IMG/VR virus record: IMGVR_UViG_3300042945_003702
Span: 1-52,564 of that record
DNA length: 52,564 nt
Origin: a virus
Reading direction: 5' to 3' (one strand)
Shown here: positions 2,541 through 39,541 of the stretch, one piece after another
How the letters are laid out: each line of letters opens with the position of its first letter
Numbering within the stretch: position 1 is the first letter of the stretch
Notes under the pieces: model-generated
What the model was told of the DNA's origin: nothing
The model's input: only the letters and a program-made list of their open reading frames with translations
The model's database searches: none
Made by a program: the position numbers and the translations under genes

Positions 2541-2550
2541 TTTTTAGACC

Positions 2551-4944: not shown

Positions 4945-4955
4945 GGGTAATGCTA

Positions 4956-6368: not shown

Positions 6369-6386
6369 GGTGTAAACAGGCTGGTC

Positions 6387-6394
6387 GTTGAAAG
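6387..6394 (+). promoter_or_regulatory. GTTGAAAG late-promoter-like element
   Basis: GTTGAAAG on the plus strand, 29 nt before the GTG start at 6424, followed by TATTATAG at 6406. It sits in the short divergent gap between two operons. Confidence 0.5.
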
Positions 6395-6423
6395 CCCTGT
6401 AGTAGTATTATAGCACGAGCCTT

Positions 6424-10370: not shown

Positions 10371-10374
10371 ATTT

Positions 10375-11645: not shown

Positions 11646-11647
11646 GT

Positions 11648-11920: not shown

Positions 11921-11948
11921 TGTGCATGACAATTAGTTGCCTAAACTG

Positions 11949-11956
11949 CTTTCACC
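11949..11956 (-). promoter_or_regulatory. Late-promoter-like element (GGTGAAAG variant)
   Basis: GGTGAAAGCAGTTTAGGC matches the element before the tail tube gene except for one base in its first positions. It lies 28 nt before the ATG at 11920. A short hairpin (ACCGG-GATT-CCGGT) overlaps its upstream side. Confidence 0.4.
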
Positions 11957-12000
11957 GGAATCCCGGTCTACGTTGATTTTTACTTAAATCACAAAGCGTG

Positions 12001-13110: not shown

Positions 13111-13145
13111 TTGGCTCCCCGTTGATTTCTATGTAGAAGGGTTAA

Positions 13146-13163
13146 GCCCCGTATGTACGGGGC
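13146..13163. terminator. Perfect hairpin between two tail-fibre genes
   Basis: GCCCCGTA-TG-TACGGGGC forms an eight-pair stem downstream of the 691-residue fibre gene on the minus strand. There is no real T-run after it, so it may act as an attenuator or RNA stabiliser rather than a strong terminator. Confidence 0.35.
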
Positions 13164-13172
13164 GATTTGGTC

Positions 13173-15248
13173 TTAGAATGTTCCGCCGTCCAGATCGAAG
13201 CCGGAAGCTGCGCCGTCTTCAAGGAAGGTGACGAGGTCGCTGAGGGCGACCTGGACCATCGTTCCTGCGTCGTTGATAACCATGCGGTCGGCCAGGACCA
13301 GGGTCGTCGCAGTCGCGGTGGTCGAGCCGTCGATCACCGAGGCCTCAGTCGAGGTCAGAGCGGCGAGCGAAGTGGCCGTGCCACTGGCCATACCGGCCAG
13401 AGTGGCCAGTTCGGCGTCGTAGGCCTGCACGTTCGTCCCGATCACCAGACCGAGGTTTGTACGAGCACCCGCCGCGTCAGTCGCACCCGTACCGCCATTA
13501 GCCAGAGCGAGCGTGCCGGCCAGAGTGACCGCACCGGTCGTGGCGGTGCTGGGGGTCAGGCCTGTCGTCCCGGCGGAGAACGAACTAACCCCGGTCCCGG
13601 AGACGGACGAGTTGAACGAGCTGTACCACTGCGTCGTGCTTGACGCGTTGAACTCCATCACGCCGTTGACGGCGAGCTGGATGCTGGCGTTGGTGCCTAG
13701 AGCATCGATAGTTGCGCCGGATGCCGGAAATATATTGACCGGGTTGGCGCCTTTGTTAACGACGATCACGCGCCGGCCGGTCGTAGCGGTGGGCAGAGTC
13801 ACGCCGCTCGGGTTCGCCGCCGCTGTGGTGATAACGCTAAGGTCGCTGGTCAGAGCGCCCTGGCCCTGGGCGTTGGTCCCCGCAGTTACGTTGGCCGTTG
13901 TGCTGAATGTCTCCCCGCTCAGAGAAGGCGTGGTCAGGGACGGTGACGTACCGAACACCAGAGCGCCAGAGCCCGTCTCGTCGGTGATCGCCGAGGCCAA
14001 GTTTGCCGATGTATCGGAGATACCGTACCCAGAGAAAGTTGTCGGGGATGTGCCTGCGGTAACCCGGCCGTAAGTGTCAACAGTGACAGAGCGGTATGTG
14101 CCCGCCGTTGCGATACCCGATGTCAGGTTGATCGAATCGACCCCGATTGTCAGCGAACCTCCGCCCGTCGAGGCCACATCGAGAGTGTTACCGGTCTTGG
14201 TCAGACCGGCCCCTGCCGTGATCTGGCCAGCCCCGGAGAACTGGGCGAATGTCAGCGCCGTAGTACCGAGAACAATGGGGTCGTTGGTCGTCAGTACCCA
14301 GCCGCTGTCCGCGTTAACCGTACCCTCCGTCACGAAGGTGAACATACCGCCTGTCACTTCGGAACCAGGCGTGTTGTCCGCGTCAAGTGCGCGGGTCCAG
14401 GCCCCAGCGGCAACAACGTAGATACCGTTGCCAGACGCGGTGGTCTGATCCTTCACCAACACGCGGTCATTGGCCACCAGGACCACACCGTCAACGGTCT
14501 GAGTGCCGCTCAGCGTGATGTTAGCGGTCGTCGCAGCCCTTACGCTGTCCTTGACATCCAGACCGGTCTTAAGCGCATCGACATACGCCTTCGTTGCCGC
14601 GTCCTGGGCCCCCGACGGATCGGCCAGGCCAGTAATCCGCTGGTTGTTCAAAGCCACCGACGCCGTCGGCGCCGTCATCTGATCTAGGCGGTTAGTCCGT
14701 ACTTGCGTATCGAAGTCGCTGATCTTCGCCGCTGTCAGAGTGGGAATATCCGCAGCGACAAGGGAGCGGAAAGTCGGGGCGCCTGCAGAACCGTCAGGCG
14801 CGATGAATACTGTATTTGCTGTCTGGCTGGCCAAAGTGCCGGTGAGTGTGCCAGTTGTGGTAACTGGAGAGCCACTGACTGTGATAAAACTCGGTAGCGA
14901 TAACGCAACGCTGGTCACTCCAGTCGCGCTCGTTAGATACCCCTGCCCCTTGACAAAAGCCGTGCTCGCCGCTTTCGTGCTGTTGTCGGACAGTGTCTGA
15001 GTGGTGACGATTACGTCGCCGGTGAACGTCTTGTTGCCCGAAACGGTCTGCGCGCCGCTAAGGCTGAGGAACGCGCCTGAGCCGCCAATCGCCGGAATTG
15101 TGGTGGCCGTACCACCAGCACCGCCCGTACCCTTACCATAGTACAGGATGTCGTCGACTTCGTTAAAGGCCAACTCCGCGTTGGCTAAGCTGGCCGGTGC
15201 GCCAGCGTTACCACTGGCCCGGCGCTTGATGCGCAGAACGTTAGCCAT
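13173..15248 (-). CDS. Large tail fibre protein
   Basis: The 691-residue protein begins [16 protein letters not shown] and has [16 protein letters not shown], the same attachment domain as the 369-residue fibre. The body contains repeats common to phage fibres: [56 protein letters not shown] and [20 protein letters not shown]. The C-terminus ends [19 protein letters not shown]. The domain order (attachment, shaft, beta repeats) fits a long side-tail fibre that recognises the host. G+C content appears higher than in the neighbouring 15251-16104 genes. Confidence 0.75.
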
Positions 15249-15250
15249 AA

Positions 15251-15499
15251 CTAGAAATTGCCCCCGTCGGTTAAGGTGAGTTTGGTATTAGTAGAGTCGG
15301 ATAGGAACTTGCCCTGTCCAGCGTTATAGACCGGAATGCTTCCGTCCACAGAAGTAGAGGTGTCAAAAATTTCTACTCTATCCTCTAGAGCTTTCAACAT
15401 ACCGAAAGTTACCGGCTCCGAGTCATCCAGGGGTGTGGGTAGGTTGAGAACCCTACTAGCACCCTTAAAATCCATGTTTACGTAGACTTCTTTGCTCAT
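15251..15499 (-). CDS. Small fibre-associated protein
   Basis: The 82-residue product ([20 protein letters not shown]...) contains [21 protein letters not shown], a string that often appears in the shaft of cyanophage fibres. It ends LTLTDGGNF, much like the end of the 691-residue fibre (DLDGGTF). It lies between a fibre gene and another structural gene and overlaps the latter by one base. Probably a short fibre or connector subunit. Confidence 0.55.
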
Positions 15500-16104
15500 T
15501 ATATTAGCCTAGCATGGCCACTAAGTGGCAGAGTAAACTCCACCCGGACAGTGTTTTTAGTCAGGTGGTTTACGTACCCGTCGATCTCATTCCACTCATT
15601 ATTAAACAGTTCTACGGAAGGATAGTAGCCCAGATTGTGAGTGATGGTCCAGGTTGCGCGGGGCTCGATCTGGTCGTACTGGACGGATTTTAGGTTGGTT
15701 CGTGTGGTCAGGACGCTGGCCGGCGACTCAGGAACCACGGGCTCGGGTGGTGCGATCACCGGAGGAACGTAGTTGGTGGGTTGGTTGGGATCTAGAACAG
15801 TATTCTGCTCCAGAAGGATGTCCGCCACTGTGGATTCGGAGAGTTGGTTACTTGCCTCGGCCCATGCCTGCCAACCCCACATCTCCTCATTATACGTATT
15901 ATGCGCCAACTGATCCTTCGAGTCGGCCTGCCCGGCGCGAAAGTTACGCAGGGGGCCGGGATTCACGCGGTTGGAGTTTGAGAGGTACTCAGGCTGGGAG
16001 AGTTGCTGGCGGACTAGCGATGTCGCCTGCGTGTCGGTGCTCCTGTAGTCGCTGGAGGCCCTGAGCCTCTCCCACTCCTCGAATGGGTTCTTCGCTACGG
16101 CCAC
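15499..16104 (-). CDS. Tail-associated structural protein with ITHNLGYYP motif
   Basis: I place the start at GTG 16104, preceded by a strong GAGGAGGGGGAGG ribosome-binding site, giving 201 residues beginning MAVAKNPFEEWERLR. The longer TTG frame would include the promoter. The C-terminus carries RATWTITHNLGYYPSVELFN and VNHLTKNTVRVEFTLPLSGH, a domain repeatedly found at the ends of phage baseplate and fibre proteins. The N-terminal half is polar and Pro-rich. A baseplate or fibre-attachment role is likely. Confidence 0.6.
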   Translation of the reverse strand: MAVAKNPFEEWERLRASSDYRSTDTQATSLVRQQLSQPEYLSNSNRVNPGPLRNFRAGQADSKDQLAHNTYNEEMWGWQAWAEASNQLSESTVADILLEQNTVLDPNQPTNYVPPVIAPPEPVVPESPASVLTTRTNLKSVQYDQIEPRATWTITHNLGYYPSVELFNNEWNEIDGYVNHLTKNTVRVEFTLPLSGHARLI

Positions 16105-27893: not shown

Positions 27894-30581
27894 CTAAAAC
27901 ATCGAGTTGAATACCGGAACTAGATCCTGGATGGTGACAGACCGCCCGTCTTCCTCGTCCTTCTGCTGCGAGACCGTCTTGGTACTCGAGTCGGCTGACT
28001 TTCTGAAGACGCTGTCAATCTCGATAGAGGAGAGCCAGGCATTGGCCACCGGAAGCTCGTAGATGCCGTAATTATACCGCATCCAGGCCCAACACCAAGC
28101 ATGAGCCACCTGGAAAAGCGTAGCGACTTTCTCGGCCTGGTCTTCCGGGCAGAGGTAGAGGATGCTGTCGTGGACCGACATGCAGAACTCCGCCTCCAGC
28201 TCGTATTTGTCGATGAGCCACTCCATCGCTGTCATGAAGGCGTGGAGCATCGCGCTCCCGGTGGACTGGATGCACCAGTTGTTACGCATCGTCCAGAAGT
28301 CGGTTCCGACGCTCGAGGGGCGGAAAGCCGTGGACATCTTGGTGCCACTGAGTGGGTTGATAGGGCAGGGCATGTTAGCGATCCGGGCCATCTCGTTGTA
28401 GGCGTAGGAGTCGGATCCGCCGATGAGGGTCTGGGAGAGCCTGGAGGCTTTCTCACCCTTCTTGATCTTGATGAGCTTTCGTCCCATCTCCATGGCCTCC
28501 TTCATCGGGATGCTCTTATTGCCCTTGCGGATGGTATTGGCCAGAGTCTTCGCCCCGCACCCGTACAACATACCGTAATTACAACCTTTGGCAATGGCCC
28601 TGGTAATGCTGATGGCCTTGGCGGTCATCGAGTGCATGTCGGTACCGTCGTCTTTCGACCCCGCAAGAATCGAGTGGGAGAACTGAGTACTCCCAGCGAT
28701 CTTGTGGAAGGAGTCGGCGAAGATCGAGGCAACGACCGCTTCCTGAGCGTCAAAGTCCGATTCCACAAACACGTAACCCTTAGGCGCCTGAACGCGGGTC
28801 TTGATCTCGCTACCGATCTTGTCGTACTTGGGGTCGGGGACGGTAAGCCACAGATTCTCACCGGCTCGATTGGTAGAGGTGTTATGCGGGACGGTGGCGG
28901 GGATGATGAGGGAGAACTCCTCGCCCTTAGGGGTCTTCACCACCTCCACGTTCTGCTCCCTCACCCTCGAGCGGACACTCGTCCAGTAGGCGACATTGAT
29001 CGCAAGCTTGATGAGCTCGCGGGCCTGCGCGAGGTCGGAACTTAGCATTCCCGACTCGAAGTCCTCAACGTAGTCCTTCGTCAGAACACCGCCAACATTC
29101 ACCCCCTCACCGTCCGTGTGCGGGAGCCGCTCGTAATTACCACTGTCCGGGTCTTTGAAACACCAACCCTTGTCCTTGAGGAACACGATCGGCTGATTAT
29201 CCCACTTCAGGCGGAGCAGGAGGTGGGAGATGCGGTTTTTGGTGGAGATGCCCTCGATGTGGGGTTTGCCATCCACCAGGTCCTTGGAAGATACGCCCCT
29301 CACCCACTTGGGCACTCCGTACCACTTCGAGCTGGGTTTTCCAGCCTTGGTGAGTTTGAAGTTGGCGCCCCAGTCGAGTTGAGAGAGCCACGGATCCCCC
29401 TGTATATCCTCGTCGGTCAGTTCGCCCTCATTCCAGGCCTCGTAGACCTCCACGGCCATCTTACTCAGGATCTCCTCCTGCCGGTCGATGGACCCCCTCC
29501 ACTGCTTCTCGCAGTTGGAGAACCACTCGTCCCAGTCGGAGACAACGGGAAGTTTGGCGGAGGCGATGCCGAAGTGAGCGGCCAGGGTGGTGGGGGACGG
29601 GTTATTCTGGAGGTACTTGAGCACTACAATCGAGTACAACTCGAAGGTGATCTTTACGTCCTTCAGGGCGTACTCGATAAGCTCGTCGCGCAGGGGCACG
29701 AAGTCGTCCATGGATGAGGAGTCCACGAACACATTCCTGATCTCCTTGTCCTCGTGCTCAAGAGGGATGGCTGGCCGGCAGTGGAAGTTGTAGCAGTCGA
29801 CGAGGTTATTCATCGAGCCCTTATCCGCCCATACCGGATCGGCTTTGTACATCACCTTCTTTGCCTGCTTCTGAACATACCACCATCGTTGGCCCGAGGC
29901 GAGGCCGGAAACGTTGATGTGGGCGGACATCGTGTCAAACCACGAGTTGGTCTTTCCGAGGACGTAGGATTCCTGCGTCCGAGGGCGGTCGTAGGCTACG
30001 TTGTGAGCGATGAACACTCCGTCCTTGCGACCCAACGGCACAAGCTTCGGCTCGTACGGCACTCTGGAATCCACAAAGCTCTCGTGCATCCAGACGTAGT
30101 AGGCTTTATCGGTAACAGCGGTGGCGAGGATCGGGTGGGAGAAGTCGCTGCCCTTGACGAAGGTCTCGCAGTCGAATACGCCAATCCTCTCTTCGATTCC
30201 GGAGACACGCCGGGCGGGACCATCGAACGGGTACTTAACCCACCCAGTCGCTAGGAAGAACTTTGTCCGGTCCGGGTAATCGGGGATGTCAGTGTAGGCG
30301 AAGTCCTTCATCAACCTCACGCGGTCCGAAGTCACCTCCTTGGAGATACGGTCGAAGTGCCCGTGGATGGTGGAGTCGCGCAACTCGGGCAGTTTGAAGT
30401 CGTCGATGAAGAAACTAGAGGGGTTCTTGACAGGAAAGTCCACACCGAACCGCTCCATCTCCTCCTTCACTTCGGAGATCTTTCTGGTCTCGGGGCGCTT
30501 AGCTTTGATGCCTTCGCCAAACACCCTGGAGTTCATCGAGTCGGAGAGGACGGCGTAACCGAGGGAATTGAGCTTGGACAT
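27894..30581 (-). CDS. Family A DNA polymerase, mitochondrial Pol-gamma type
   Basis: The 895-residue enzyme has a 3'-5' exonuclease and a polymerase domain. Exo I is VFDCETF (D137, E139), Exo II IAHNVAYDR (N194, D198), Exo III EYALKDVKIT (Y304, D308). Pol A is VESDFDAQE (D609), Pol B RAIAKGCNYGMLYG (R661, K665, Y669), Pol C MSVHDSILYL (D805). Beyond these, several blocks match human POLG: WFDTMSAHINVSGLASGQR, a PxPxTLA..LPV segment, GDPWLSQLDW, GSEIKTRVQAPKGY and a C-terminal LPVANAWLSSIEIDSVFRKS. Motif C has Ser where HDE is usual. It should replicate the phage genome. A small gene follows closely. Confidence 0.9.
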   Translation of the reverse strand: MSKLNSLGYAVLSDSMNSRVFGEGIKAKRPETRKISEVKEEMERFGVDFPVKNPSSFFIDDFKLPELRDSTIHGHFDRISKEVTSDRVRLMKDFAYTDIPDYPDRTKFFLATGWVKYPFDGPARRVSGIEERIGVFDCETFVKGSDFSHPILATAVTDKAYYVWMHESFVDSRVPYEPKLVPLGRKDGVFIAHNVAYDRPRTQESYVLGKTNSWFDTMSAHINVSGLASGQRWWYVQKQAKKVMYKADPVWADKGSMNNLVDCYNFHCRPAIPLEHEDKEIRNVFVDSSSMDDFVPLRDELIEYALKDVKITFELYSIVVLKYLQNNPSPTTLAAHFGIASAKLPVVSDWDEWFSNCEKQWRGSIDRQEEILSKMAVEVYEAWNEGELTDEDIQGDPWLSQLDWGANFKLTKAGKPSSKWYGVPKWVRGVSSKDLVDGKPHIEGISTKNRISHLLLRLKWDNQPIVFLKDKGWCFKDPDSGNYERLPHTDGEGVNVGGVLTKDYVEDFESGMLSSDLAQARELIKLAINVAYWTSVRSRVREQNVEVVKTPKGEEFSLIIPATVPHNTSTNRAGENLWLTVPDPKYDKIGSEIKTRVQAPKGYVFVESDFDAQEAVVASIFADSFHKIAGSTQFSHSILAGSKDDGTDMHSMTAKAISITRAIAKGCNYGMLYGCGAKTLANTIRKGNKSIPMKEAMEMGRKLIKIKKGEKASRLSQTLIGGSDSYAYNEMARIANMPCPINPLSGTKMSTAFRPSSVGTDFWTMRNNWCIQSTGSAMLHAFMTAMEWLIDKYELEAEFCMSVHDSILYLCPEDQAEKVATLFQVAHAWCWAWMRYNYGIYELPVANAWLSSIEIDSVFRKSADSSTKTVSQQKDEEDGRSVTIQDLVPVFNSMF

Positions 30582-30665: not shown

Positions 30666-31313
30666 TCAGTAGTAGATGAGAAACTCGTCCCGGTCGGTGT
30701 AGTACACCCCAACCCCCTCGAAGTTTGTGGCGTCTATGATGCGGAGATTCTTCCTGAAGTAGGGGTACCCGTAGTGCCCGAAGAAGTACTTAGCGTCATC
30801 GCGGATGTGGTCCTCGAGCGGGTCGTTTCTGAACCAGGGGTAGCCGATGCCCGTGAGTACGTTGTTCCTGGTGGAGTCGTCGTAATCAGGATCGTAGTAA
30901 GCGTGAGCGCAGCGGTAGATCTGCCCCTCCGCCTCAAATTCCAGAGTGAGGGGCGTTACGAGGAGCCAGTGGAGGAGCTCAAGCTGGGTCTTTAGAGGTA
31001 GGCTTTTCACCAACTCAAGGGTATACCTGACTTCCCTCTGCTTGATCTGGGGCTTGGGTAGCGCGAGGTTTTTCAGGATGTAGTTCTCGTTGTTTCCGAT
31101 TATCAGCGTTGCCTTGCCCTGGTCCACGAGGTTTTTGACCTTCAGCAACATCTTCACCGGGGACGTACGCTTAGACCTCCGGAAGAATGACTTGTGGTGG
31201 ATGACGTCGCCTAGGAACACGTAGTGGTAGTCCGGGGATTTCTGCAGGATGCGGTCGAGGGTGTCAATACGGCCGTGCAGATCGCCGATCAAGCAGTATC
31301 TCTCAGTACTCAC
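30666..31313 (-). CDS. Calcineurin-like metallophosphoesterase
   Basis: I start at GTG 31313, overlapping the upstream stop, giving 215 residues (MSTERYCLIGDLHGRIDTLD). Metal-binding motifs are GDLHG (residues 10-14), GDVIHH (35-40) and GNNE (73-76), the last replacing the usual GNHE, followed by His-containing segments (CAHAYY, FFGHYG). The PPP-like order suggests a Ser/Thr protein phosphatase or nucleotide phosphoesterase. A longer frame to 31379 adds no domain. The missing His could lower or change activity. Confidence 0.75.
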   Translation of the reverse strand: MSTERYCLIGDLHGRIDTLDRILQKSPDYHYVFLGDVIHHKSFFRRSKRTSPVKMLLKVKNLVDQGKATLIIGNNENYILKNLALPKPQIKQREVRYTLELVKSLPLKTQLELLHWLLVTPLTLEFEAEGQIYRCAHAYYDPDYDDSTRNNVLTGIGYPWFRNDPLEDHIRDDAKYFFGHYGYPYFRKNLRIIDATNFEGVGVYYTDRDEFLIYY

Positions 31314-31845
31314 CTCTCGCCTCCAGGCAGCAGCCAGGTGCCCACCAGTCCGGGGCAGGGACTTTTGCCCACTTGGCAAATCTCCACTTCGTCCAGTTGT
31401 AGTAATTGCGGTAGGCTTGGATGGGATCCTCGTAGACTCTGCAGAAGGAGGGCATCGCTTGCACGGGGTCAGTAAGACCTCGGTGGGGATAGACGTTCTC
31501 GACCACCAGCTTTGACACAGTGCCGTAGTAAAAAGACAGAAGACTTGTCAATCCGGCGTGCTTCTTGCCAAATCTTTTGCTAAACTCAGCGCATAGGTGG
31601 TATGTCATTTCAAACAACCACAAAAAATTACCCGAGGACTCCTGGACCCACTTCGTGCACGGGTGGTTCTTATACGCCCTGGTAGAGTAGTAATTGCCAT
31701 CTTTTTTCTTCGCTGGGAGGTAACCGTAATGCACCGCGGCAACGCTCATCATCTGAAGATGCTCGATAATCATCTTGTTGACGTGCTTGTCGCAGTGAGC
31801 CGCTGCGCATTCCTTCGTGTTGGCGGAAAGGAAAAAGATGTTCAT
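31303..31845 (-). CDS. Conserved T4-family phage protein (sometimes named pyrimidine-dimer glycosylase)
   Basis: The 180-residue protein shows the pattern of a family found in many T4-like phages: MNIFFLSANTKECAAAHCDK, HVNKMIIEHLQM, YKNHPCTKWVQES, NFLWLFEMTYHLC, and near the end PIQAYRNYYNWTKW and VPAPDWW. The CDKHVxKM and NHPCxxWVxES blocks are the best marks. Databases sometimes call it a pyrimidine-dimer DNA glycosylase; I do not see evidence for that activity. GGGAGG precedes the ATG, and TGATAGAAT upstream looks like an extended -10. Confidence 0.7.
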   Translation of the reverse strand: MNIFFLSANTKECAAAHCDKHVNKMIIEHLQMMSVAAVHYGYLPAKKKDGNYYSTRAYKNHPCTKWVQESSGNFLWLFEMTYHLCAEFSKRFGKKHAGLTSLLSFYYGTVSKLVVENVYPHRGLTDPVQAMPSFCRVYEDPIQAYRNYYNWTKWRFAKWAKVPAPDWWAPGCCLEARGEY

Positions 31846-32064: not shown

Positions 32065-32080
32065 TGCTGTGGTGTGATAT

Positions 32081-32141
<61 letters not shown>

Positions 32142-32151
<10 letters not shown>

Positions 32152-32267
32152 TCTTCGGGCTCGTCCTCGTAGCTACTAGGTTCCTCGAAGAGCTCGCGCA
32201 ACTTGAGTCTGTTAGCCAGTTCTAGTAACTGCGAGAAATCCTCTTCCTTGGTTAGTTGTTCAGCCAT
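32142..32267 (-). CDS. Short acidic peptide between tRNA genes
   Basis: A 41-residue frame (MAEQLTKEEDFSQLLELANR...) that is helical and then acidic (SSYEDEPEEGG). Its last codons overlap the 5' end of tRNA-Val, so the two transcripts interfere or are processed apart. A GTTTAAAG at 32275-32282 lies only seven nt upstream, too close for the usual promoter spacing. Unknown function. Confidence 0.5.
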
Positions 32268-32290
32268 CGGAAAGCTTTAAACTGTTTTAT

Positions 32291-32373
32291 GCGCGAGAGA
32301 GGACTTGAACCTCCACGGGGTTGCCCCCACGGGTATCTAAAACCCGGGCGTCTACCAATTCCGCCACTTGCGC
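32291..32373 (-). tRNA. tRNA-Leu (UAG)
   Basis: Class II tRNA with anticodon loop TTTAGAT and a long variable arm (GTGGGGGCAACCCCGT). The acceptor GCGCAAG/CTCGCGC has one A-C mismatch. Confidence 0.93.
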
Positions 32374-32378
32374 GAGGT

Positions 32379-32450
32379 GCTCGATGCGAGGATCGAACTC
32401 GCCTATATCCGATTATGAGTCGGGTGCTTTCACCAGATAGCTAATCGAGC
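32379..32450 (-). tRNA. tRNA-Met/Ile2 (CAU)
   Basis: Cloverleaf with anticodon loop CTCATAA. The CAU anticodon could be elongator Met or a lysidine-modified Ile tRNA; sequence alone does not decide. Confidence 0.93.
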
Positions 32451-32454
32451 GAGT

Positions 32455-32525
32455 AGGACCGCGGAGACTCGGACTCCGTTCACTCCGTTATAAGCAGAGG
32501 GCCTTAACCCATAGGCGACGGTCCC
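32455..32525 (-). tRNA. tRNA-Ile (UAU)
   Basis: Anticodon loop CTTATAA, stem CTCTG/CGGAG. The T-loop is TCCGAGT, slightly unusual. This tRNA would read the rare AUA codon. It is the first tRNA downstream of the sigma70-like promoter. Confidence 0.88.
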
Positions 32526-32558
32526 AAAGCTCACCGACCGTGTCTCCGGTGTATGTAC

Positions 32559-32587
32559 ATTATACCATATGTTGGGACAACAATCAA
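32559..32587 (-). promoter_or_regulatory. Sigma70-like promoter for tRNA segment
   Basis: On the minus strand TTGATT, then exactly 17 nt, then TATAAT preceded by TGG (extended -10). It points into the Ile-Met-Leu-Val tRNA segment and the CP12-like gene. It looks suited to the host RNA polymerase, so these genes may be early. Confidence 0.7.
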
Positions 32588-32618
32588 TAGGAGGCTTAGC
32601 GTACCGGCTATCTGAAGG

Positions 32619-32780
32619 TCATAGGTACGCAATGTCTCGCGAATCGACAGGAATAAATGATCCATCGGTGGTTCTGACAATAAATACGGCGTAGTACCCC
32701 GGAAAGTCCGCCGATACCCCCTGTATTATACCCGTTCTCCAGAGTTTGTAGTAGGTAAAGCCTACGCGTCTCCCCCTCAT
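32619..32780 (-). CDS. Small basic protein, 53 residues
   Basis: The frame (MRGRRVGFTYYKLWRTGIIQ...) overlaps the stop of the upstream gene by ATGA, which supports translation. It is beta-rich in character (YYAVFIVRTTDGSFIPVDS). Function unknown. Confidence 0.55.
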   Translation of the reverse strand: MRGRRVGFTYYKLWRTGIIQGVSADFPGYYAVFIVRTTDGSFIPVDSRDIAYL

Positions 32781-33229
32781 TTGCCGCCGGAGTGGACGGA
32801 TGGTAGGTTGGGGAACACGGACTCTAGGACGTTAATCTGGCCCACCAGCACCCCCACAACTAGCAAAGCCCCACCTAACAACCACTTGAATCTCGATAAG
32901 TCGTCTATGCGAGAGCCCAGTACCTTCACCTCCTTATCCACCTTCGTATCGAGGTCACTTATCTCGTCGGTGGTGGACTTTATCTCCCGGGCGTGATTGG
33001 ACTTTAGCTCATCTAGGAGCTTTATTATCGCTGTGTCTGACTGTATGCTCTGGTCCAGGCGTTCCTCGTGTCTTACGAGGATCTTCGCCACGTTCTGATT
33101 GGCTTCTGAGATCTTGTCTACAGCCGTCTCGAGTTTGGAGAGCATCTCTCTGGAGAGATCCTCGTAGACGTTTAGTTTTTCCTCTAGAACGGCGAGTCTT
33201 ACGTTTGAGGAGCCAAATAAGTTAGCCAT
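32777..33229 (-). CDS. Membrane-anchored coiled-coil protein
   Basis: The 150-residue protein has a long N-terminal coiled coil (residues about 12-112; RLAVLEEKLNVYEDL, ISDLDTKVDKEVKVLGSRID). A single transmembrane helix (WLLGGALLVVGVLVGQI, about 115-131) follows, and then a short polar end. The order resembles XhlA-type phage proteins that help lysis, but those are shorter. It may also tether a complex to the membrane. GTTTAAAG lies 42 nt upstream of the start. Confidence 0.65.
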   Translation of the reverse strand: MANLFGSSNVRLAVLEEKLNVYEDLSREMLSKLETAVDKISEANQNVAKILVRHEERLDQSIQSDTAIIKLLDELKSNHAREIKSTTDEISDLDTKVDKEVKVLGSRIDDLSRFKWLLGGALLVVGVLVGQINVLESVFPNLPSVHSGGK

Positions 33230-33271
33230 ACGGGATCGGATATGCGTAACGAATCGTACTACCAGTTATTA

Positions 33272-33279
33272 CTTTAAAC
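33272..33279 (-). promoter_or_regulatory. GTTTAAAG promoter-like element
   Basis: GTTTAAAG on the minus strand between tRNA-Thr and the coiled-coil gene, 42 nt before its ATG. Confidence 0.4.
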
Positions 33280-33282
33280 AAA

Positions 33283-33355
33283 GCCCCCTGTCGGACTCGA
33301 ACCGACGACCTACGGTTTACAAAACCGGTGCTCTATCCAGCTGAGCTAAGGAGGC
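33283..33355 (-). tRNA. tRNA-Thr (UGU)
   Basis: Complete cloverleaf, acceptor GCCTCCT/AGGGGGC, anticodon loop TTTGTAA, T-loop TTCGAGT. Confidence 0.95.
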
Positions 33356-33358
33356 GGG

Positions 33359-33431
33359 GTGTAGGACGGGACTTGAACCCGCATAAACTAGAATCACAAT
33401 CTAGTGCATTAGCCAATTATGCTACCTACAC
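33359..33431 (-). tRNA. tRNA-His (GUG)
   Basis: Acceptor GTGTAGG/CCTACAC with anticodon loop TTGTGAT. Stems are well paired. Confidence 0.95.
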
Positions 33432-33433
33432 AT

Positions 33434-33504
33434 GGCAGTAATGGGATTTGAACCCATAATTCCGTCGTTATGAATGACGGGCTTTACCGTTAAGCTATAC
33501 TGCC
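33434..33504 (-). tRNA. tRNA-Met/Ile2 (CAU), second
   Basis: Anticodon loop TTCATAA; acceptor GGCAGTA/TACTGCC. The anticodon stem CGTCA/CGACG has one mismatch next to the loop. This is the second CAU tRNA, so one of the two may be Ile2. Confidence 0.9.
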
Positions 33505-33508
33505 TGGC

Positions 33509-33597
33509 GGAAGATGTTGGATTTGAACCAACGGAGCCGGGTGTACCGACTCGGCGGTTTAGCAAACCGCTGCCTTAAGCCTCTCGGCCAATCTTCC
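33509..33597 (-). tRNA. tRNA-Ser (GCU)
   Basis: Class II tRNA, anticodon loop TTGCTAA, long variable arm, acceptor GGAAGAT/ATCTTCC. Confidence 0.95.
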
Positions 33598-33616
33598 AAT
33601 GTTGCCCGAAGGCAAT

Positions 33617-33697
33617 GCTCATGAAGGGACTTGAACCCCTACGCCTTACGGCACGTGCACCTCAAGCATGCGTGTCTACCAATTCCACCACACGAGC
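33617..33697 (-). tRNA. tRNA-Leu (GAG)
   Basis: Class II tRNA, anticodon loop TTGAGGT with one A-C mismatch in the stem, variable arm TGCCGTAAGGCG. A TTGCC-CGAA-GGCAA hairpin lies in the adjacent spacer at 33602-33615. Confidence 0.92.
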
Positions 33698-33701
33698 TGG
33701 A

Positions 33702-33771
33702 GTTTCAGGTCAGAATCGAACTGACGATAGAGGCTTTGCAGGCCTCCGCCTTACCACTTGGCCACTGAAAC
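33702..33771 (-). tRNA. tRNA-Cys (GCA)
   Basis: Anticodon loop CTGCAAA; acceptor GTTTCAG/CTGAAAC. It is followed by TCCA, that is U73 plus an encoded CCA end, extending the gene to 33698. Confidence 0.95.
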
Positions 33772-33789
33772 ATTTGCCTTTTGGCAAGC

Positions 33790-33862
33790 GCTCTCTGAGA
33801 GATTTGAACTCCCGACACCCTGGTCCGTAGCCAGGTGCTCTAGTCCGCTGAGCTAAGAGAGC
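33790..33862 (-). tRNA. tRNA-Arg (ACG)
   Basis: Acceptor GCTCTCT/AGAGAGC, anticodon loop CTACGGA. A34 would need conversion to inosine by host TadA. A TTGCC-TTTT-GGCAA hairpin lies in the 3' spacer. Confidence 0.95.
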
Positions 33863-33867
33863 ATGGC

Positions 33868-33937
33868 ACCGAAACAAGGACTTGAACCTTGGATAACAGT
33901 TTTGGAGACTGTCGTGTTACCACTACACTATTTCGGT
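33868..33937 (-). tRNA. tRNA-Trp (CCA)
   Basis: Anticodon loop CTCCAAA; acceptor ACCGAAA/TTTCGGT, followed by an encoded GCCA end (to 33864). Confidence 0.95.
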
Positions 33938-33955
33938 ATGTTGCCCGAAGGCGAT

Positions 33956-34027
33956 TGGAACGACGAGGTTTGAACTCGTGACCTCACGATTATCGGTCGT
34001 GTGCTCTACCAACTGAGCTACGTTCCA
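33956..34027 (-). tRNA. tRNA-Ile (GAU)
   Basis: Anticodon loop CCGATAA, acceptor TGGAACG/CGTTCCA. The spacer next to it has a TTGCC-CGAA-GGCGA hairpin. Confidence 0.94.
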
Positions 34028-34192
34028 TTATGTGCCCGTGGTGGGGAATGATCCCACTCTCAATAGACTTGAGGTTTCGTACAAGAAGAACTCTTATGAG
34101 GGAGAATCTTATCAGTGTGGGTTCAGCACACCTATCTAAAACTACTTTGTCAAGTTGAACCCTATTTTACCGTCCCAACGGCAAAGGCAAGC
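34028..34192. other. Spacer with tRNA-like remnant
   Basis: About 165 nt without a complete tRNA. On the minus strand a variable-arm-like hairpin (CTCAA-GTCTA-TTGAG) is followed by GTGGG-ATCATTC-CCCAC and CACGGGC. This looks like the 3' half of a class II tRNA, but no matching 5' half is seen. A second hairpin GTGTG-GGTTCAG-CACAC lies at 34117-34133. Confidence 0.3.
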
Positions 34193-34264
34193 GGGAACAG
34201 TCGGAATCGAACCGACAACACCACGATCTTCAATCGTGTGCTCTACCGTTGGAGCTACGTTCCC
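34193..34264 (-). tRNA. tRNA-Phe (GAA)
   Basis: Anticodon loop TTGAAGA; acceptor GGGAACG/TGTTCCC. All arms are present. Confidence 0.95.
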
Positions 34265-34268
34265 TGGC

Positions 34269-34341
<73 letters not shown>

Positions 34342-34375
34342 ATATACGCCGGCGCGGGCGAGGGTATCCACCTAC

Positions 34376-34392
34376 GGAAACGGGAACCGTTT
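34376..34392. other. Spacer hairpin in tRNA cluster
   Basis: GAAACGG-GAA-CCGTTTC forms a perfect seven-pair stem in the spacer between tRNA-Arg and tRNA-Ala. A CCCCC-GCGA-GGGGG tetraloop hairpin lies nearer tRNA-Ala. Confidence 0.6.
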
Positions 34393-34468
34393 CTCTACGA
34401 TGTGGCTTAGGGGACCCTTCGTTTAAGCCTCCGTTCCTTGGAGGCCCCGAACCCCCGCGAGGGGGCAT

Positions 34469-34540
34469 GGAGAGTAGGAGGCTCGAACTCCTGACAGCCT
34501 GCTTGCAAAGCAGGTGCTCTACCAGCTGAGCTAACCCCCC
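34469..34540 (-). tRNA. tRNA-Ala (UGC)
   Basis: Anticodon loop TTTGCAA; acceptor GGGGGGT/ACTCTCC with two G-T pairs. Confidence 0.94.
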
Positions 34541-34558
34541 TGGCGGCCCTTTTGTTAA

Positions 34559-34605
34559 AGCGGTAGAGCCGAACCGCATCAATGGAGAACGTTTGGACCG
34601 TTCTC
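34559..34605. other. Two spacer hairpins between tRNA-Ala and tRNA-Pro
   Basis: GCGGT-AGAGCCGA-ACCGC and GAGAACG-TTTGGAC-CGTTCTC follow one another. They may guide tRNA precursor processing. Confidence 0.55.
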
Positions 34606-34609
34606 GAGT

Positions 34610-34680
34610 CGGGGTGAGAGGGATCGAACCTCCGACATCCTGCTCCCAAAGCAGGCGCGCTACCGCTGCGCTACACCCCG
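34610..34680 (-). tRNA. tRNA-Pro (UGG)
   Basis: Anticodon loop TTTGGGA; acceptor CGGGGTG/CACCCCG, the Pro-typical C1-G72 pair. Confidence 0.95.
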
Positions 34681-34740
34681 TGATGGCCCCATTTAACACG
34701 TTAGAACACGGCTCAAGACCGGCCAGAGGTGGGGGCTAGG

Positions 34741-34764
34741 GGCTCCGGTAGTGACCCCGGAGCC
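34741..34764. other. Perfect 8-bp hairpin
   Basis: GGCTCCGG-TAGTGACC-CCGGAGCC. There is no T-run, so a terminator is unlikely. It is the strongest local structure in the long tRNA-cluster gap. Confidence 0.6.
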
Positions 34765-34825
34765 GCCTGTCACTAGGCTGCCCGATGCTTACGCAGAGCG
34801 GGAACGAGGCAGGTGTCTCTACGCT

Positions 34826-34877
34826 GTACGTTCCTTACGTGTCACCAGCTCTGTCGTACGTTCCCTACGTGTCACCA
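34826..34877. repeat. Tandem 22-nt direct repeat, 30-nt period
   Basis: GTACGTTCCYTACGTGTCAC plus CA occurs at 34826-34847 and 34856-34877, with a single difference (T or C). Each unit contains two ACGT palindromes, so it may be a protein-binding site. Confidence 0.7.
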
Positions 34878-35201
34878 ACAGTTCAACTCCTTTTGCTTTC
34901 CTTACCTCGGCAGGGTGCCGCTACCTCCCTTTTTTGCGGCGTGTGTGTACGTTTCGTTTATCTGGGTACGTTACTAGACCCAGGATACTGCTTACTGTAC
35001 CCGCATCAAGTCGTGAGTGTCGTTAACGCTTGAGCATGGAATGGGAGTTCACCCATTCATCACTTATTTGGGAGCCTGAACTATGACTCTTACAGGCAGT
35101 TTGGCATTTTTCTCGCTCCCAGACTACGCAAACTGCCAAATGGCATCTGGGCACAAGCCTACTTCCCCCTCGTCTAGTAGGCGTCGCATGGACGAGGGAA
35201 C

Positions 35202-35272
35202 TGGCCCGGCAGGGATCGAACCTGCGACAACTTGATTAACAGTCAAGCGTTCTACCGCTGAACTACAGGCCA
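35202..35272 (-). tRNA. tRNA-Asn (GUU)
   Basis: Anticodon loop CTGTTAA; acceptor TGGCCTG/CGGGCCA. Confidence 0.95.
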
Positions 35273-35278
35273 TTGAGC

Positions 35279-35360
35279 GGAGAGGAAGGGACTCGAACCC
35301 CCGAGGCTTTTACACCCAACAGTTTTCAAGACTGCGCCCTCGACCAACCGGACCCTCTCC
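35279..35360 (-). tRNA. tRNA-Ser (UGA)
   Basis: Class II tRNA, anticodon loop CTTGAAA, long variable arm, acceptor GGAGAGG/CCTCTCC. Confidence 0.93.
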
Positions 35361-35413
35361 GTGAGGTTTGCCACCGGCATTCCGGATTATCAGCTCCGGC
35401 GCGAAGTGGCGAC

Positions 35414-35486
35414 GACCCATACGGGATTTGAACCCGTGATCTCCACCGTGACAGGGTGGCGTGATAGACCGCTACACTAATGGGTC
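35414..35486 (-). tRNA. tRNA-Asp (GUC)
   Basis: Anticodon loop CTGTCAC; acceptor GACCCAT/ATGGGTC. The spacer before it contains a GCCAC...GTGGC inverted repeat. Confidence 0.95.
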
Positions 35487-35491
35487 AAGGT

Positions 35492-35572
35492 GGGTAGGGG
35501 TGGATTTGAACCACCGATGGCAGAGCCGCCTGATTTACAGTCAGGTTCCTTAAACCACTCGGACACCTACCC
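35492..35572 (-). tRNA. tRNA-Tyr (GUA)
   Basis: Class II tRNA with anticodon loop CTGTAAA; acceptor GGGTAGG/CCTACCC. Confidence 0.95.
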
Positions 35573-35591
35573 AAAACAGTTTATGTTTGCC

Positions 35592-35609
35592 GACCGAGCT
35601 GAAACGGTC
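35592..35609. other. Spacer hairpin in tRNA cluster
   Basis: GACCG-AGCTGAAA-CGGTC between tRNA-Tyr and tRNA-Lys. Confidence 0.5.
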
Positions 35610-35612
35610 AAT

Positions 35613-35683
35613 GGGTCTGGTGGGGCTCGAACCCACAACTTCCAGGTTAAAAGCCCGTTACTCTGCCATTGAGTTACAGACCC
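35613..35683 (-). tRNA. tRNA-Lys (UUU)
   Basis: Anticodon loop CTTTTAA; acceptor GGGTCTG/CAGACCC. The outermost pair of the anticodon stem is mismatched. It is the 5'-most tRNA of the dense cluster on the minus strand. Confidence 0.92.
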
Positions 35684-35994
35684 ATAAAAGGTTTAGATTG
35701 TCAAGGTTCGGGGGTCGTGGGGGGGCCGGAGAAGTCCGTCTCCCTTGACCATGAGACTAATATATCAGAGACGGGAGGCTTTGGGAATGGCCTGGTGGAC
35801 GGTTGGTAAGCTGTCCACTTCGGTCTCCGCGCAAAAGAAAAGAGGGGAGAAGTCTTTTTGACCTCTGCCCCTCCTGTAATTTGCTTATAGAGTTTCCCGT
35901 ATTAGCAAACAAGAGGGGCCAGCACCGCATCTCTCGGTGAGGGGTTCTTAAATGCAATATACGAGAAGTTAGTCATACTAGTCTATAAACACTG
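35684..35994. other. Non-coding region with strong stem-loop
   Basis: No convincing gene. It contains a GTCAAGG...CCTTGAC inverted repeat (about 35699-35748) and a long imperfect hairpin at 35842-35873. Confidence 0.5.
35842..35873. other. Long stem-loop, possible RNA structure
   Basis: GAGGGG-AGAAGTC with loop TTTTT pairs with GACCTCT-G-CCCCTC in a stem of about 12-13 pairs with one bulge. It could be a small RNA or a terminator for the hli operon. Confidence 0.45.
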
Positions 35995-36012
35995 TCAGTA
36001 TGTTTCTGACAG
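35992..36012 (-). terminator. Inverted repeat at end of hli operon
   Basis: CTGTCAG-AAACATA-CTGACAG on the minus strand overlaps the end of the 28-codon gene and is followed by TGTTTATAG. The T-run is weak. Confidence 0.4.
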
Positions 36013-36081
36013 TTGATTGATCGAGTGAAAGAGAAGCACCAGAAAAGCCACGGAGGTGACGGTGAAGATAACCTCTCCCAT
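35995..36081 (-). CDS. 28-residue single-span membrane peptide
   Basis: MGEVIFTVTSVAFLVLLFHS then INQLSETY. Its ATG overlaps the stop of the hli gene (TGATG), which argues for coupled translation. Length and one hydrophobic helix resemble small photosystem or cytochrome b6f subunits, but I cannot match it to a named one. It may act in the thylakoid membrane with the Hli protein. Confidence 0.5.
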   Translation of the reverse strand: MGEVIFTVTSVAFLVLLFHSINQLSETY

Positions 36082-36200
36082 CACCACACGCCAGGGATGA
36101 CCTGGCCAGTCACGAAGTACGCACCTACAGCGGCCACGAAGCCGAGCATTGCCAGCCGGCCATTGAGCTTTTCGGCCTTCTCAGTAAAGATCTTGTCCAT
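36081..36200 (-). CDS. hli: High-light-inducible protein (Hli), short form
   Basis: The 39-residue product contains the chlorophyll-binding Hli signature EKLNGRLAMLGFVAAVGAYF and ends TGQVIPGVW. It has one transmembrane helix with the conserved E..NGR.AM motif. Hli proteins bind chlorophyll and carotenoid, dissipate excess light energy and help photosystem repair; phages use them to keep photosynthesis going. A 28-residue membrane peptide is coupled downstream. Confidence 0.92.
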   Translation of the reverse strand: MDKIFTEKAEKLNGRLAMLGFVAAVGAYFVTGQVIPGVW

Positions 36201-36255
36201 TGTTACCTAGTTGGTTTGTAGAGGTAGGAGGGGGGAGGAAACGCTTCAGTCGTCG

Positions 36256-36450
36256 TCAGAAGACTCCGAAGAAGAGCTTACCAGTGAGAGCGTAAGAAAC
36301 AGCACCAGCAATAATACCGACCATAGCCCAGCGTCCATTAGTGCGTTCCTTCACCTGGTTGGGGGTGAGCATGCCGTAGTTTTCGTAGTACATGACAGGC
36401 TCTTTGGCCCACATGTTCTGCTGGCCACGCTCGTTAGTTGTAACCGTCAT
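36256..36450 (-). CDS. hli: High-light-inducible protein (Hli), second
   Basis: From ATG 36450 (GGAG ribosome-binding site) the product has 64 residues: a polar N-terminus (MTVTTNERGQQNMWAKEPV), then ERTNGRWAMVGIIAGAVSYA and LTGKLFFGVF. The NGRWAM..G motif marks it as Hli. A longer frame from 36483 is less likely. Along with the neighbouring Hli, it should protect photosystem II during infection. Confidence 0.9.
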   Translation of the reverse strand: MTVTTNERGQQNMWAKEPVMYYENYGMLTPNQVKERTNGRWAMVGIIAGAVSYALTGKLFFGVF

Positions 36451-36488
36451 AGAGAAGTCTCTCCACATTTCCTTAACCATCATATCAT

Positions 36489-36513
36489 AAAAATGGGGGG
36501 CTTGTGGCCCCCC
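36489..36513 (-). terminator. Terminator after porin gene
   Basis: On the minus strand GGGGGGC-CACAA-GCCCCCC is followed by ATTTTTAT. It is a strong intrinsic terminator downstream of the SLH porin gene. Confidence 0.9.
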
Positions 36514-36539
36514 GTAGCCAGTTTGTCAGGAGACCCTGA

Positions 36540-37415
36540 TCAGAACTTGATGCCCAAGCCGGTCGTGAAGACGGGGCTGTAGGAGGATCCGGTAACGCCG
36601 GAGTTTGTCGTGGGGAACTTCAGGTCGGCAAAGCCGATCAGTGAGTTGGTCAGACGACCCTCGACGCCCAGAGCGAATACCACCTGACCCTTATTCCCAA
36701 CCGCGGACTGGAAGTTGGAGGTGGTGTTATTCACAAAGGGAATCTGGTAACCGACACCGGCATACAGATTGGCCTTGCTAACACCACTGGAGGCTTTGGC
36801 CAAGCTCATATCGTAGGAGATGAGGCCACCACCACCGGCCCCGATCTGGCCCGAAGGACTCCCGACCAGGTTGGCGTAGGGGCGCACCGAGATGGCGTTC
36901 TGGTTGGAGAAGGTCTTGGCGGAGTAACGGGCCTGGATCGTGGCACCAGAGACGGTGCGATTAGCCCCGTAGCCATTGCCATTGACACCCTGGCGATCCA
37001 ACAGAACACCGGCACCCAGGTAATTACCCACACCCTGAGCTTTTTGCGCTGCTGCGACTTCCAAAGCAGTTACACGGGAGTTGGTCTGAGCGATCTCTCT
37101 GCCGAACTCGGCCCGGAGAGCAGCGGCAGTCTGGGCGTCAGCGGCGGAGTAGAATTCGGTGATACGATCGAGACAGGCATTTGTCAGAGCGGCAAGCTCA
37201 GCACGGGTGGCGGGCTGACCTGGCTTAAAGGTGCCGTTCGGGTACCCGGCCACGCAACCGTAACGGGAGATTAGGTTGGAGACGGCTTGGTACGACCACT
37301 CGGTGGGCTGAACGTCGCGCAGTTGACCAACGCTTGTTACTTGAGCCATGGCGGCCATCGGAGCAATCATGGTAACAGCGCTGATGGCACCAATTGCAGA
37401 GACGAGCTTTTTCAT
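36540..37415 (-). CDS. Cyanobacterial-type SLH porin, shortened
   Basis: The 291-residue protein has a signal peptide (MKKLVSAIGAISAVTMIAPM, cleavage near AMA-Q). An SLH domain follows (about 25-85; DVQPTEWSYQAVSNLISRYG, VAGYPNGTFKPGQPATRAEL, LTNACLDRI). Next is a short coiled coil (AQTNSRVTALEVAAAQKAQ), then a beta-barrel-like part ending in Phe (TTGLGIKF), which suits outer-membrane insertion. Host porins of this type usually have about 500 residues, so the barrel is much reduced. It probably inserts in the host outer membrane or binds the wall. A phage role in nutrient uptake or superinfection exclusion is speculation. Confidence 0.85.
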   Translation of the reverse strand: MKKLVSAIGAISAVTMIAPMAAMAQVTSVGQLRDVQPTEWSYQAVSNLISRYGCVAGYPNGTFKPGQPATRAELAALTNACLDRITEFYSAADAQTAAALRAEFGREIAQTNSRVTALEVAAAQKAQGVGNYLGAGVLLDRQGVNGNGYGANRTVSGATIQARYSAKTFSNQNAISVRPYANLVGSPSGQIGAGGGGLISYDMSLAKASSGVSKANLYAGVGYQIPFVNNTTSNFQSAVGNKGQVVFALGVEGRLTNSLIGFADLKFPTTNSGVTGSSYSPVFTTGLGIKF

Positions 37416-37500
37416 ACTTTCTTAAGAATGTTTGGAACGTGAAGGGGTTACGCGTCTCTCTAGGCTATTTGCCTAGCAACTACGTTGTTATCCCCTAAGA

Positions 37501-37571
37501 GCGGAATAGGGGATTTGAACCCCTGACATCCTACTTGGAAGGAAGGCGCTCTACCGCTGAGCTAATTCCGC
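37501..37571 (-). tRNA. tRNA-Gly (UCC)
   Basis: Anticodon loop CTTCCAA; acceptor GCGGAAT/ATTCCGC. It lies apart from the main cluster, just upstream of the porin gene. Confidence 0.95.
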
Positions 37572-38686: not shown

Positions 38687-39541
38687 CTAGAGACTCTGGA
38701 CTTCTTTCGCGTAGTTAAGGCCGATCTCCGCTCTCTTGGCCACCGCGGCTTTAGATTGGCCCTTGGCCGCTTTGTACTCATCCACGGACTTCCTAACCAG
38801 GTTAACGTACGAATCCTTGTCAAATTCCGGCCTGTAGATATCGATGAGTTTCCCCACCTTATTGAAGTCAACGATGGCTTTCTGAGGATCGTCCTGGATC
38901 TTACCGGAGAGGCCGTAGTCGATGAGGGTGGCGTCCTTGCCCCCCTCACCGTCGGTAAGGAACTGCTCGTTGTGCATGTCGCCATGATAGAAGCCCATCT
39001 TATGGAGGTCCTTGATGGCCGATAGGGCCTTGGAGGCCTGTTCGGTGGTCATCTTGACGTCCCGCTCCTTCTCGTCGTCGGTCCGGTTGAAACCGCCCGA
39101 CCAGAGGGGCTTGCCCTTGGAAAAATCCATCTCGATATGGTCCTTGGAGGCGGAGTAGATCTTAGGGGAGTGGCCAAGCTCTCCCATCTTCCGCCCCAGC
39201 TCCACCTCGTGGGGTCCCCACTCCTTACCCTCCTTGAGGGTCTTGACAACGTGGCCGGTCTGTGGATCCTGGTAGACCACACCGTAGTTGCCCTCGGCAA
39301 GCTTTTTCATCTTGGAGATGTCTGGCATACCGGAGGAGCCGGGGGACTTCTGCTGCCCTCCTACTCTATCATCGCCACCCACCAGCTTCCATCGCCCATT
39401 AGCCTGTTTCTGAAGTGTATGGCCGGACTGGGGATTGCGATAAACCTGCCCAGGCGTAGCGGTCTTCTTGATGGACTCCGGGACCATCTCGTCGGAGTAG
39501 GAGGCCTGCCTCCAGCCCTCAGGCCACCATCCAAGCGTCAT
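38687..39541 (-). CDS. Protein-kinase-like protein with shared N-terminal domain
   Basis: The 284-residue product has the shared domain at residues 1-58. A kinase-like fold follows: LAEGNYGVVYQDPQTG (Gly-loop), VVKTL (K100), HEVEL (possible E for the salt bridge), then FYHGDMHNEQFL (H186, D188) and ATLIDYGLS (DYG for DFG, D208). The catalytic loop has Gln193 where HGDLHPGN-type kinases have Asn. The first domain repeats the Gly-loop region in outline (VYRNPQSGHTLQK versus VYQDPQTGHVVK). It may phosphorylate host proteins or be a pseudokinase. GTTGAAAG lies 25 nt before the ATG. Confidence 0.75.
   Translation of the reverse strand: MTLGWWPEGWRQASYSDEMVPESIKKTATPGQVYRNPQSGHTLQKQANGRWKLVGGDDRVGGQQKSPGSSGMPDISKMKKLAEGNYGVVYQDPQTGHVVKTLKEGKEWGPHEVELGRKMGELGHSPKIYSASKDHIEMDFSKGKPLWSGGFNRTDDEKERDVKMTTEQASKALSAIKDLHKMGFYHGDMHNEQFLTDGEGGKDATLIDYGLSGKIQDDPQKAIVDFNKVGKLIDIYRPEFDKDSYVNLVRKSVDEYKAAKGQSKAAVAKRAEIGLNYAKEVQSL

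Follow-up and report, generated by a model that had tools for sequence, protein, structure and literature searches.

A virus record of 52,564 bases from the IMG/VR collection (IMGVR_UViG_3300042945_003702), the whole of which is called the window here, carries on its minus strand an intact open reading frame (ORF) for a family A DNA polymerase, the plus-strand reading of the same interval (27894-30581) being interrupted by stops. By sequence, tree and structural model, the ORF very probably encodes a complete member of the DNA polymerase gamma (Pol gamma) branch, and its product most likely replicates the DNA of an S-TIM5-like cyanophage, a replicase being favoured over a repair enzyme because the corresponding protein is the annotated DNA polymerase of S-TIM5. 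Location in mitochondria is a trait of the eukaryotic members of Pol gamma only. According to passages in PMC7156551 and PMC4928673, Pol gammas were found in A-HIS1/2 (2011), S-TIM5 (2012), S-CBWM1 (2018) and Mic1 (2020), and these finds were read as favouring either descent of the mitochondrial polymerase from phage or a common ancestor; the 2016 review PMC4928673, with reference to Sabehi et al. 2012, describes the S-TIM5 polymerase as mitochondrial-like and as supporting a phage origin. The window polymerase is another member of this known phage branch, and its novelty is limited because the S-TIM5 polymerase has already been published. What is added here is the abundance of relatives in IMG/VR, the position of Mic1-like phages nearest to the eukaryotes, a clade-fixed HDS in motif C, the finding of no POLG2-type protein and a clade-specific phosphoesterase gene upstream.

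Sequence and predicted structure of the polymerase

The exonuclease part of the protein matches Pfam PF18136, 'DNA mitochondrial polymerase exonuclease domain', at 171.1 bits (E 3.6e-50, cut-off 26.7), the polymerase core matches the family A model PF00476 at 54.9 bits, and among PHROG families phrog_22619 is matched at 1177 bits. When the protein was compared with PDB by phmmer (E up to 1), 14 of the 17 sequences listed were Pol gamma, with yeast Mip1 (9c51) at the top (411 bits, 5.8e-122) and mouse POLG (9g74) next (327 bits), the best non-Pol-gamma polymerase being a bacterial Pol I at 20.5 bits. An earlier reading of the DNA from its letters alone (the sequence-only reading) had likened the exonuclease and spacer regions to POLG of animals, naming four blocks, WFDTMSAHINVSGLASGQR, PSPTTLA...LPV, GSEIKTRVQAPKGY and IEIDSVFRKS, all of which are found in the ORF. 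The likeness is far beyond chance by the PF18136 and PDB E-values and the assignment to Pol gamma stands, but the closest PDB sequence is the yeast enzyme rather than an animal one.

The residues of a DEDDy-type exonuclease, the aspartates of family A motifs A and C and the R..K..Y of motif B (D609, R661, K665, Y673, D805) are all present. Conservation was followed in 130 distinct phage relatives, drawn from 202 of 232 loci that cover more than 85% of a query (many of the 232 being the same contigs repeated), a set that excludes the window's own copy (L006) and predates the later Mic1-like contigs. The five exonuclease residues (D137 and E139 of ExoI, D198 of ExoII, Y304 and D308 of ExoIII) are invariant in all 130. 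The corresponding polymerase residues are D609, Q613 and E614 in motif A, R661, K665, Y669 and Y673 in motif B, and H804, D805 and S806 in motif C; D609, Q613-E614, K665, Y673 and H804-D805 are likewise invariant in 130 of 130, R661 is kept in 129, the remaining row being split by an insertion and having a gap there, and the two positions that vary are 806 in motif C and 669 in motif B. By sequence and model, the protein has a DEDDy-type exonuclease domain for 3'-5' proofreading and a family A polymerase domain, linked by a spacer of Pol gamma type, and it is expected to extend primers on the phage DNA and to proofread as a single polypeptide, as yeast Mip1 does.

An AlphaFold2 model built from 37 aligned window and IMG/VR proteins has a mean predicted local distance difference test score of 85.2 and a predicted template modelling score of 0.84. 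In a comparison with PDB, Pol gamma takes the first 35 places (Z 29.3-45.2 over 757-869 aligned residues), none of the Pol theta, T7 and Pol I entries that come next exceeds Z 17.2, and the best 50 rows contain only Pol gamma and other family A polymerases. The predicted fold agrees with the Pol gamma assignment, for which the sequence-only reading had proposed a structural comparison. In a viral structure library the top match, G0KYA6 (E 1e-66, 30% identity, 971 columns), lies far above the others.

The yeast and mammalian enzymes differ from the window enzyme in the region between exonuclease and polymerase. From the ExoIII aspartate to the motif A aspartate, counted by hand on the numbered phmmer alignments, there are 301 residues here, 346 in yeast Mip1 and 487 in mouse POLG, about 186 more than in the window enzyme. 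Mip1 shares the short spacer and differs, beyond this distance, in having HDE in motif C, its model Z being 30.8. Mouse and human POLG (9g74, 8d3r) share the fold (model Z 38) and the DTMS, TLA..LPV, GSE[IL]K and ID...RK blocks; the mouse enzyme differs in working with an accessory subunit and in having HDE. Residues 467-531 and 590-709 of mouse POLG are unaligned to the window enzyme, and 532-589 align only at an insignificant score. The 301-residue distance therefore leaves no room for the extra mammalian spacer segments, and no metazoan-type accessory-interacting segment was found in the window enzyme. The determinant of metazoan POLG that contacts the accessory subunit lies, we presume, in the mouse segments that are unaligned here. 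Its role is described in part of PMC4419789, which also presents single-subunit Pol gamma as normal outside Metazoa and yeast Mip1 as a single-subunit enzyme. HGTP_anticodon, the POLG2-type domain, was matched in none of four complete POLG phage genomes (S-TIM5, S-CBWM1, Mic1, A-HIS1), the window record, a fragment, not being among those searched, and in none of 26 large POLG contigs, the search control matching in 14 of 14 genomes. The enzyme would probably act, like Mip1, as a single chain that needs no POLG2-like accessory subunit.

As the sequence-only reading had remarked, motif C is HDS rather than HDE; it lies in the ORF as SVHDSI. The residue after the motif C aspartate is serine in all 62 distinct sequences of the S-TIM5 clade, and glutamate in all 68 other phage Pol gammas (65 from the S-CBWM1 clade, one Mic1, two A-HIS) and in both eukaryotic sequences. 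A local sequencing or assembly error is ruled out by the 62 distinct sequences that share the serine. Nor is the motif unique to the window enzyme, since three of six outgroups in the panel also lack the glutamate (Pajaza with HDS, AikoCarson and YenP744 with HDA; T7, HTVC041P and E. coli Pol I have HDE). Among the sequences compared, HDS is distinctive only within Pol gamma, and the motif C glutamate is not counted as defining Pol gamma because other family A polymerases lack it. The O-helix aromatic residue is tyrosine in the S-TIM5 clade, Mic1 and both eukaryotes, and phenylalanine in 64 of 65 members of the S-CBWM1 clade and both A-HIS sequences. The titles and abstracts searched do not mention the motif C change of S-TIM5 or its upstream phosphoesterase, though either may still be published. 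A clade of Pol gammas without the glutamate offers a natural experiment on the role of that residue.

Phage and mitochondrial Pol gammas

All trees sample the eukaryotes through two sequences. An unrooted tree of 33 phage representatives and these two (874 columns) resolves an S-TIM5 clade, an S-CBWM1 clade, A-HIS, and Mic1 with the eukaryotes (100/100). With 11 family A outgroups added (46 rows, 755 columns), phage and eukaryotic Pol gammas form one clade (100/100), Mic1 again groups with the eukaryotes (100/100) and A-HIS joins next (99.5/99), while the root position has support of 21/62. A reduced set of 27 rows adds a second Mic1-like contig from IMG/VR (L245, which with Mic1 makes up the Mic1-like group of the trees) and was analysed over 729 columns, over 490 columns that T7 and Pol I also have, and under a site-profile model (LG+C10). 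The Pol gamma clade has support of 100 in the 27-row trees, and Mic1-like phages group with the eukaryotes at 97 (729 columns), 89 (490 columns) and 95 (site-profile model); in the 490-column tree the outgroup joins the Mic1-plus-eukaryote stem (55) instead of standing beside the S-CBWM1 clade. Two further contigs, L246 and L248, resemble the Mic1-like ones and are 62-64% identical to Mic1 in their first part.

Constrained trees, searched in fast mode, were compared on the two column sets by the approximately unbiased (AU) test. The rejected constraints are at least 43 log units worse than the best tree; enforcing Pol gamma monophyly (c6), a grouping that the best tree shows anyway, still cost 7.2 and 0.2 units, and gaps no larger than this are therefore noise of the search. 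Grouping the window clade with T7-type polymerases costs 107 and 100 log units and is rejected (p-AU 2e-10 and 8e-31), as is a clade made up of T7 and all phage Pol gammas but not the eukaryotes (3e-60 and 9e-6). A sister relationship between the window clade and eukaryotic Pol gamma is rejected too (6e-7 and 5e-4), and so are eukaryotes with A-HIS (0.006 and 0.001), though the Shimodaira-Hasegawa test does not reject the latter on 490 columns (0.0635). Eukaryotes outside all phage Pol gammas are not rejected (0.143 and 0.091). The tree that the sequence-only reading had called for does not place the enzyme with T7-like or PolI-like polymerases. The trees make the phage-eukaryote link firm, and the closest phage branch to the eukaryotic enzyme is, on the sampled sequences, the Mic1-like one and not the S-TIM5-like one to which the window belongs.

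That the window encodes an ordinary T7-type or Pol I-type phage polymerase with a superficial likeness to Pol gamma has next to no probability. The core is that of family A, and both PF00476 and NCBIfam Pol I-type models match weakly; the seven NCBIfam models listed, however, reach 14-39 bits against cut-offs of 350-871 (for Pol I / DpoZ the best is 38.8 bits against a curated cut-off of 601), the T7 grouping fails in the trees, and structural Z falls from 29-45 to 17 beyond Pol gamma. How phage and mitochondrial enzymes came to share a clade is a closer question. It is about an even call that the animal and fungal mitochondrial Pol gamma is a captured phage polymerase, sister of Mic1-like cyanophages inside phage diversity, with the S-TIM5 lineage standing apart as a cousin in which the motif C glutamate was lost. 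Transfer from eukaryotes to phages, or descent of both from an unsampled source, is appreciably less likely. In its favour, an all-phage clade with eukaryotes outside, at 11.2 and 4.9 log units worse than the best trees, is not rejected, and the outgroup hangs on a stem of 2.1-3.2 substitutions per site whose attachment is weak (21/62, 56 and 66, or 55 for the Mic1-plus-eukaryote stem). On the other side, the best trees put the eukaryotes beside Mic1-like phages, inside phage diversity (ultrafast bootstrap 100, 97, 89, 95), A-HIS joins that group next in three of four of them (99, 73, 82), and phage Pol gammas comprise many deep lineages. The present trees do not fix which way the gene was transferred.

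Several points weigh against the reading as a single-chain replicase of the Pol gamma branch. The two eukaryotic sequences are both opisthokont and both incomplete; the structural Z-scores derive from a predicted model; with the motif C glutamate absent, ordinary kinetics are not certain, though other phage family A polymerases lack it too; an accessory protein of a non-POLG2 fold would escape the HGTP_anticodon search; and the statement that the S-TIM5 annotation lists no second DNA polymerase applies outside record positions 1-16049 and 159112-172474.

Mitochondria descend from bacteria. According to the section of PMC7156551 that cites Chan et al. 2011, there is no report of a Pol gamma from bacteria. 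Outside mitochondria, a Pol gamma-type polymerase has been reported only from cyanobacterial phages. Two pattern scans of 84,980 bacterial and archaeal species, each represented by a single genome, found no relative; the first used two short peptide patterns and the pattern of the second retrieved only S-TIM5-clade loci in the viral collection, so other Pol gamma types could have escaped. The question of origin is helped by the wider sampling (130 distinct phage Pol gammas and the Mic1-like contigs), to which the window itself adds one member of a known branch.

Host phage and neighbouring genes

Among 50,697 phage records, 15 match the polymerase, 11 over at least 80% of its length and all of these cyanophages, the remaining four being Microbacterium phages with a 25% partial match. 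Identity is 71-72% to S-TIM5, S-TIM54, S-TIM61 and S-TIM66, 34% to S-CBWM1, 32% to Mic1 and 28-31% to A-HIS1/2. Window and S-TIM5 are collinear from the portal gene to that of the DNA-binding protein, with roughly 20-85% identity per protein, and the window holds a tail sheath gene and psbA (phrog_182). By gene content the phage is S-TIM5-like, and the cyanophage label given by the sequence-only reading is borne out by the polymerase identity (71% to S-TIM5) and the collinear genes. The S-TIM5 polymerase (AEZ65654; Aurunvirus) is 71% identical over the full length and shares HDS, an upstream phosphoesterase homologue and the head-gene neighbours; it differs at about 29% of residues, and the window has few S-TIM5 matches outside the collinear region, as well as an array of 23 tRNA genes. 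The Pol gammas of Mic1, A-HIS1, A-HIS2 and S-CBWM1 share domain order, catalytic residues and one clade with the window enzyme, from which they differ in their 28-34% identity and in having HDE; the Mic1 gene is interrupted at motif A, and S-CBWM1 and A-HIS have phenylalanine in the O-helix where the window enzyme and Mic1 have tyrosine.

Table 1. Positions of the polymerase gene, its parts and its neighbours in the window
Feature	Position	Strand	Evidence
Pol-gamma-type family A DNA polymerase	27894..30581	minus	intact 895-aa ORF and stop, ATG start
Polymerase domain core, residues 587-824	28110..28823	minus	PF00476 match
Motif C codons H804-D805-S806 (HDS, not HDE)	28164..28172	minus	translation
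3'-5' exonuclease domain, residues 61-321	29619..30401	minus	PF18136 match
Calcineurin-like metallophosphoesterase gene	30666..31379	minus	PF00149 36.9 bits; directly upstream of polymerase
Pyrimidine-dimer DNA glycosylase-like / DNA-binding protein	31303..31845	minus	PF03013 36.4 bits; phrog_624 177.5 bits; S-TIM5 counterpart; same gene run
tRNA gene array	32080-37571	minus	23 by ARAGORN, 22 by Rfam

The calcineurin-like phosphoesterase was followed with a neighbourhood profile grown from the window protein. Of 49 distinct S-TIM5-clade loci in which at least 1.5 kb precedes the polymerase, 48 have it as the immediate upstream neighbour; it adjoins the polymerase in none of 48 loci of the S-CBWM1 clade and in neither the single Mic1 locus nor the single A-HIS1 locus, where remote homologues may escape the profile. 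Of 58 distinct homologues, 55 retain the GNNE box. A guess that may be offered is that it serves as an obligate partner that modifies the HDS polymerase or compensates for it, perhaps through the cleaning of 3' ends or the removal of a product. Its position, kept in the S-TIM5 clade as against the S-CBWM1 clade, and its intact GNNE box speak for such a role, which we nonetheless regard as improbable: the idea draws on neighbourhood, no fusion with the polymerase was seen, homologues in other clades could have escaped the profile, and the association may be a single evolutionary event because both HDS and the phosphoesterase mark one clade.

The idea that a full mitochondrial replication set, with Pol gamma, a Twinkle-type helicase and a single-subunit RNA polymerase, travels together in these phages is rejected on domain searches. 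RNA_pol (PF00940) and DnaB_C (PF03796) were not matched in S-TIM5, S-CBWM1, Mic1 or A-HIS1, whereas T7 matched both in the same kind of search; PF00940 was also absent from 26 large POLG contigs, in a run where nothing matched and for which the T7 control was run separately.

Relatives of the polymerase are abundant in IMG/VR, where scans returned 39, 65, 58, at least 80, 6 and 3 Pol gamma loci, the scan with A-HIS2 returning none. Photo_RC, the photosystem reaction-centre family, was matched in eight of the 26 large contigs, two being short fragments, and these contigs (three of the S-TIM5 clade, five of the S-CBWM1 clade) fit cyanobacterial hosts. No psbA match was found in the flanks of the fetched polymerase loci.

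Some of these Pol gamma genes are interrupted. In Mic1 (L003, 9815-10087) a group I intron-like stretch lies at motif A, matching RF00028 at 45.5 bits (E 2e-10), below the gathering score of 50. Contig L094 (about 7805-9860) is interrupted twice, at motif A and motif B, each insertion holding an ORF that by eye resembles a GIY-YIG endonuclease, and L097 (about 3180-3430) is interrupted near motif B; neither the L094 nor the L097 insertions matched an intron model, and none of the three interrupted genes, Mic1 included, has an insertion at the gathering score. L216, L222, L223 and L224 carry the gene as two ORFs that part where spacer and polymerase meet, near S-CBWM1 residue 488, with an inter-ORF distance of about 0.7-1.7 kb and polymerase starts near 6001, 6001, 2401 and 6001, respectively; L223 and L224 are split again near residue 684. 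These two-ORF Pol gammas may reflect introns or a natural split between exonuclease and polymerase genes.

Elsewhere on the minus strand of the window, 36540-37415 encodes a protein with an S-layer homology domain (PF00395, 43.6 bits), and 38687-39541 a protein with a faint resemblance to protein kinases (PF00069 at 23 bits against a cut-off of 31.7) whose S-TIM5 counterpart is 64% identical. A gyrase/topoisomerase IV subunit A-like protein (PF00521, 317.5 bits) is encoded at 46582-48501, also on the minus strand; S-CBWM1, too, has a DNA topoisomerase II gene, which lies near its polymerase gene.

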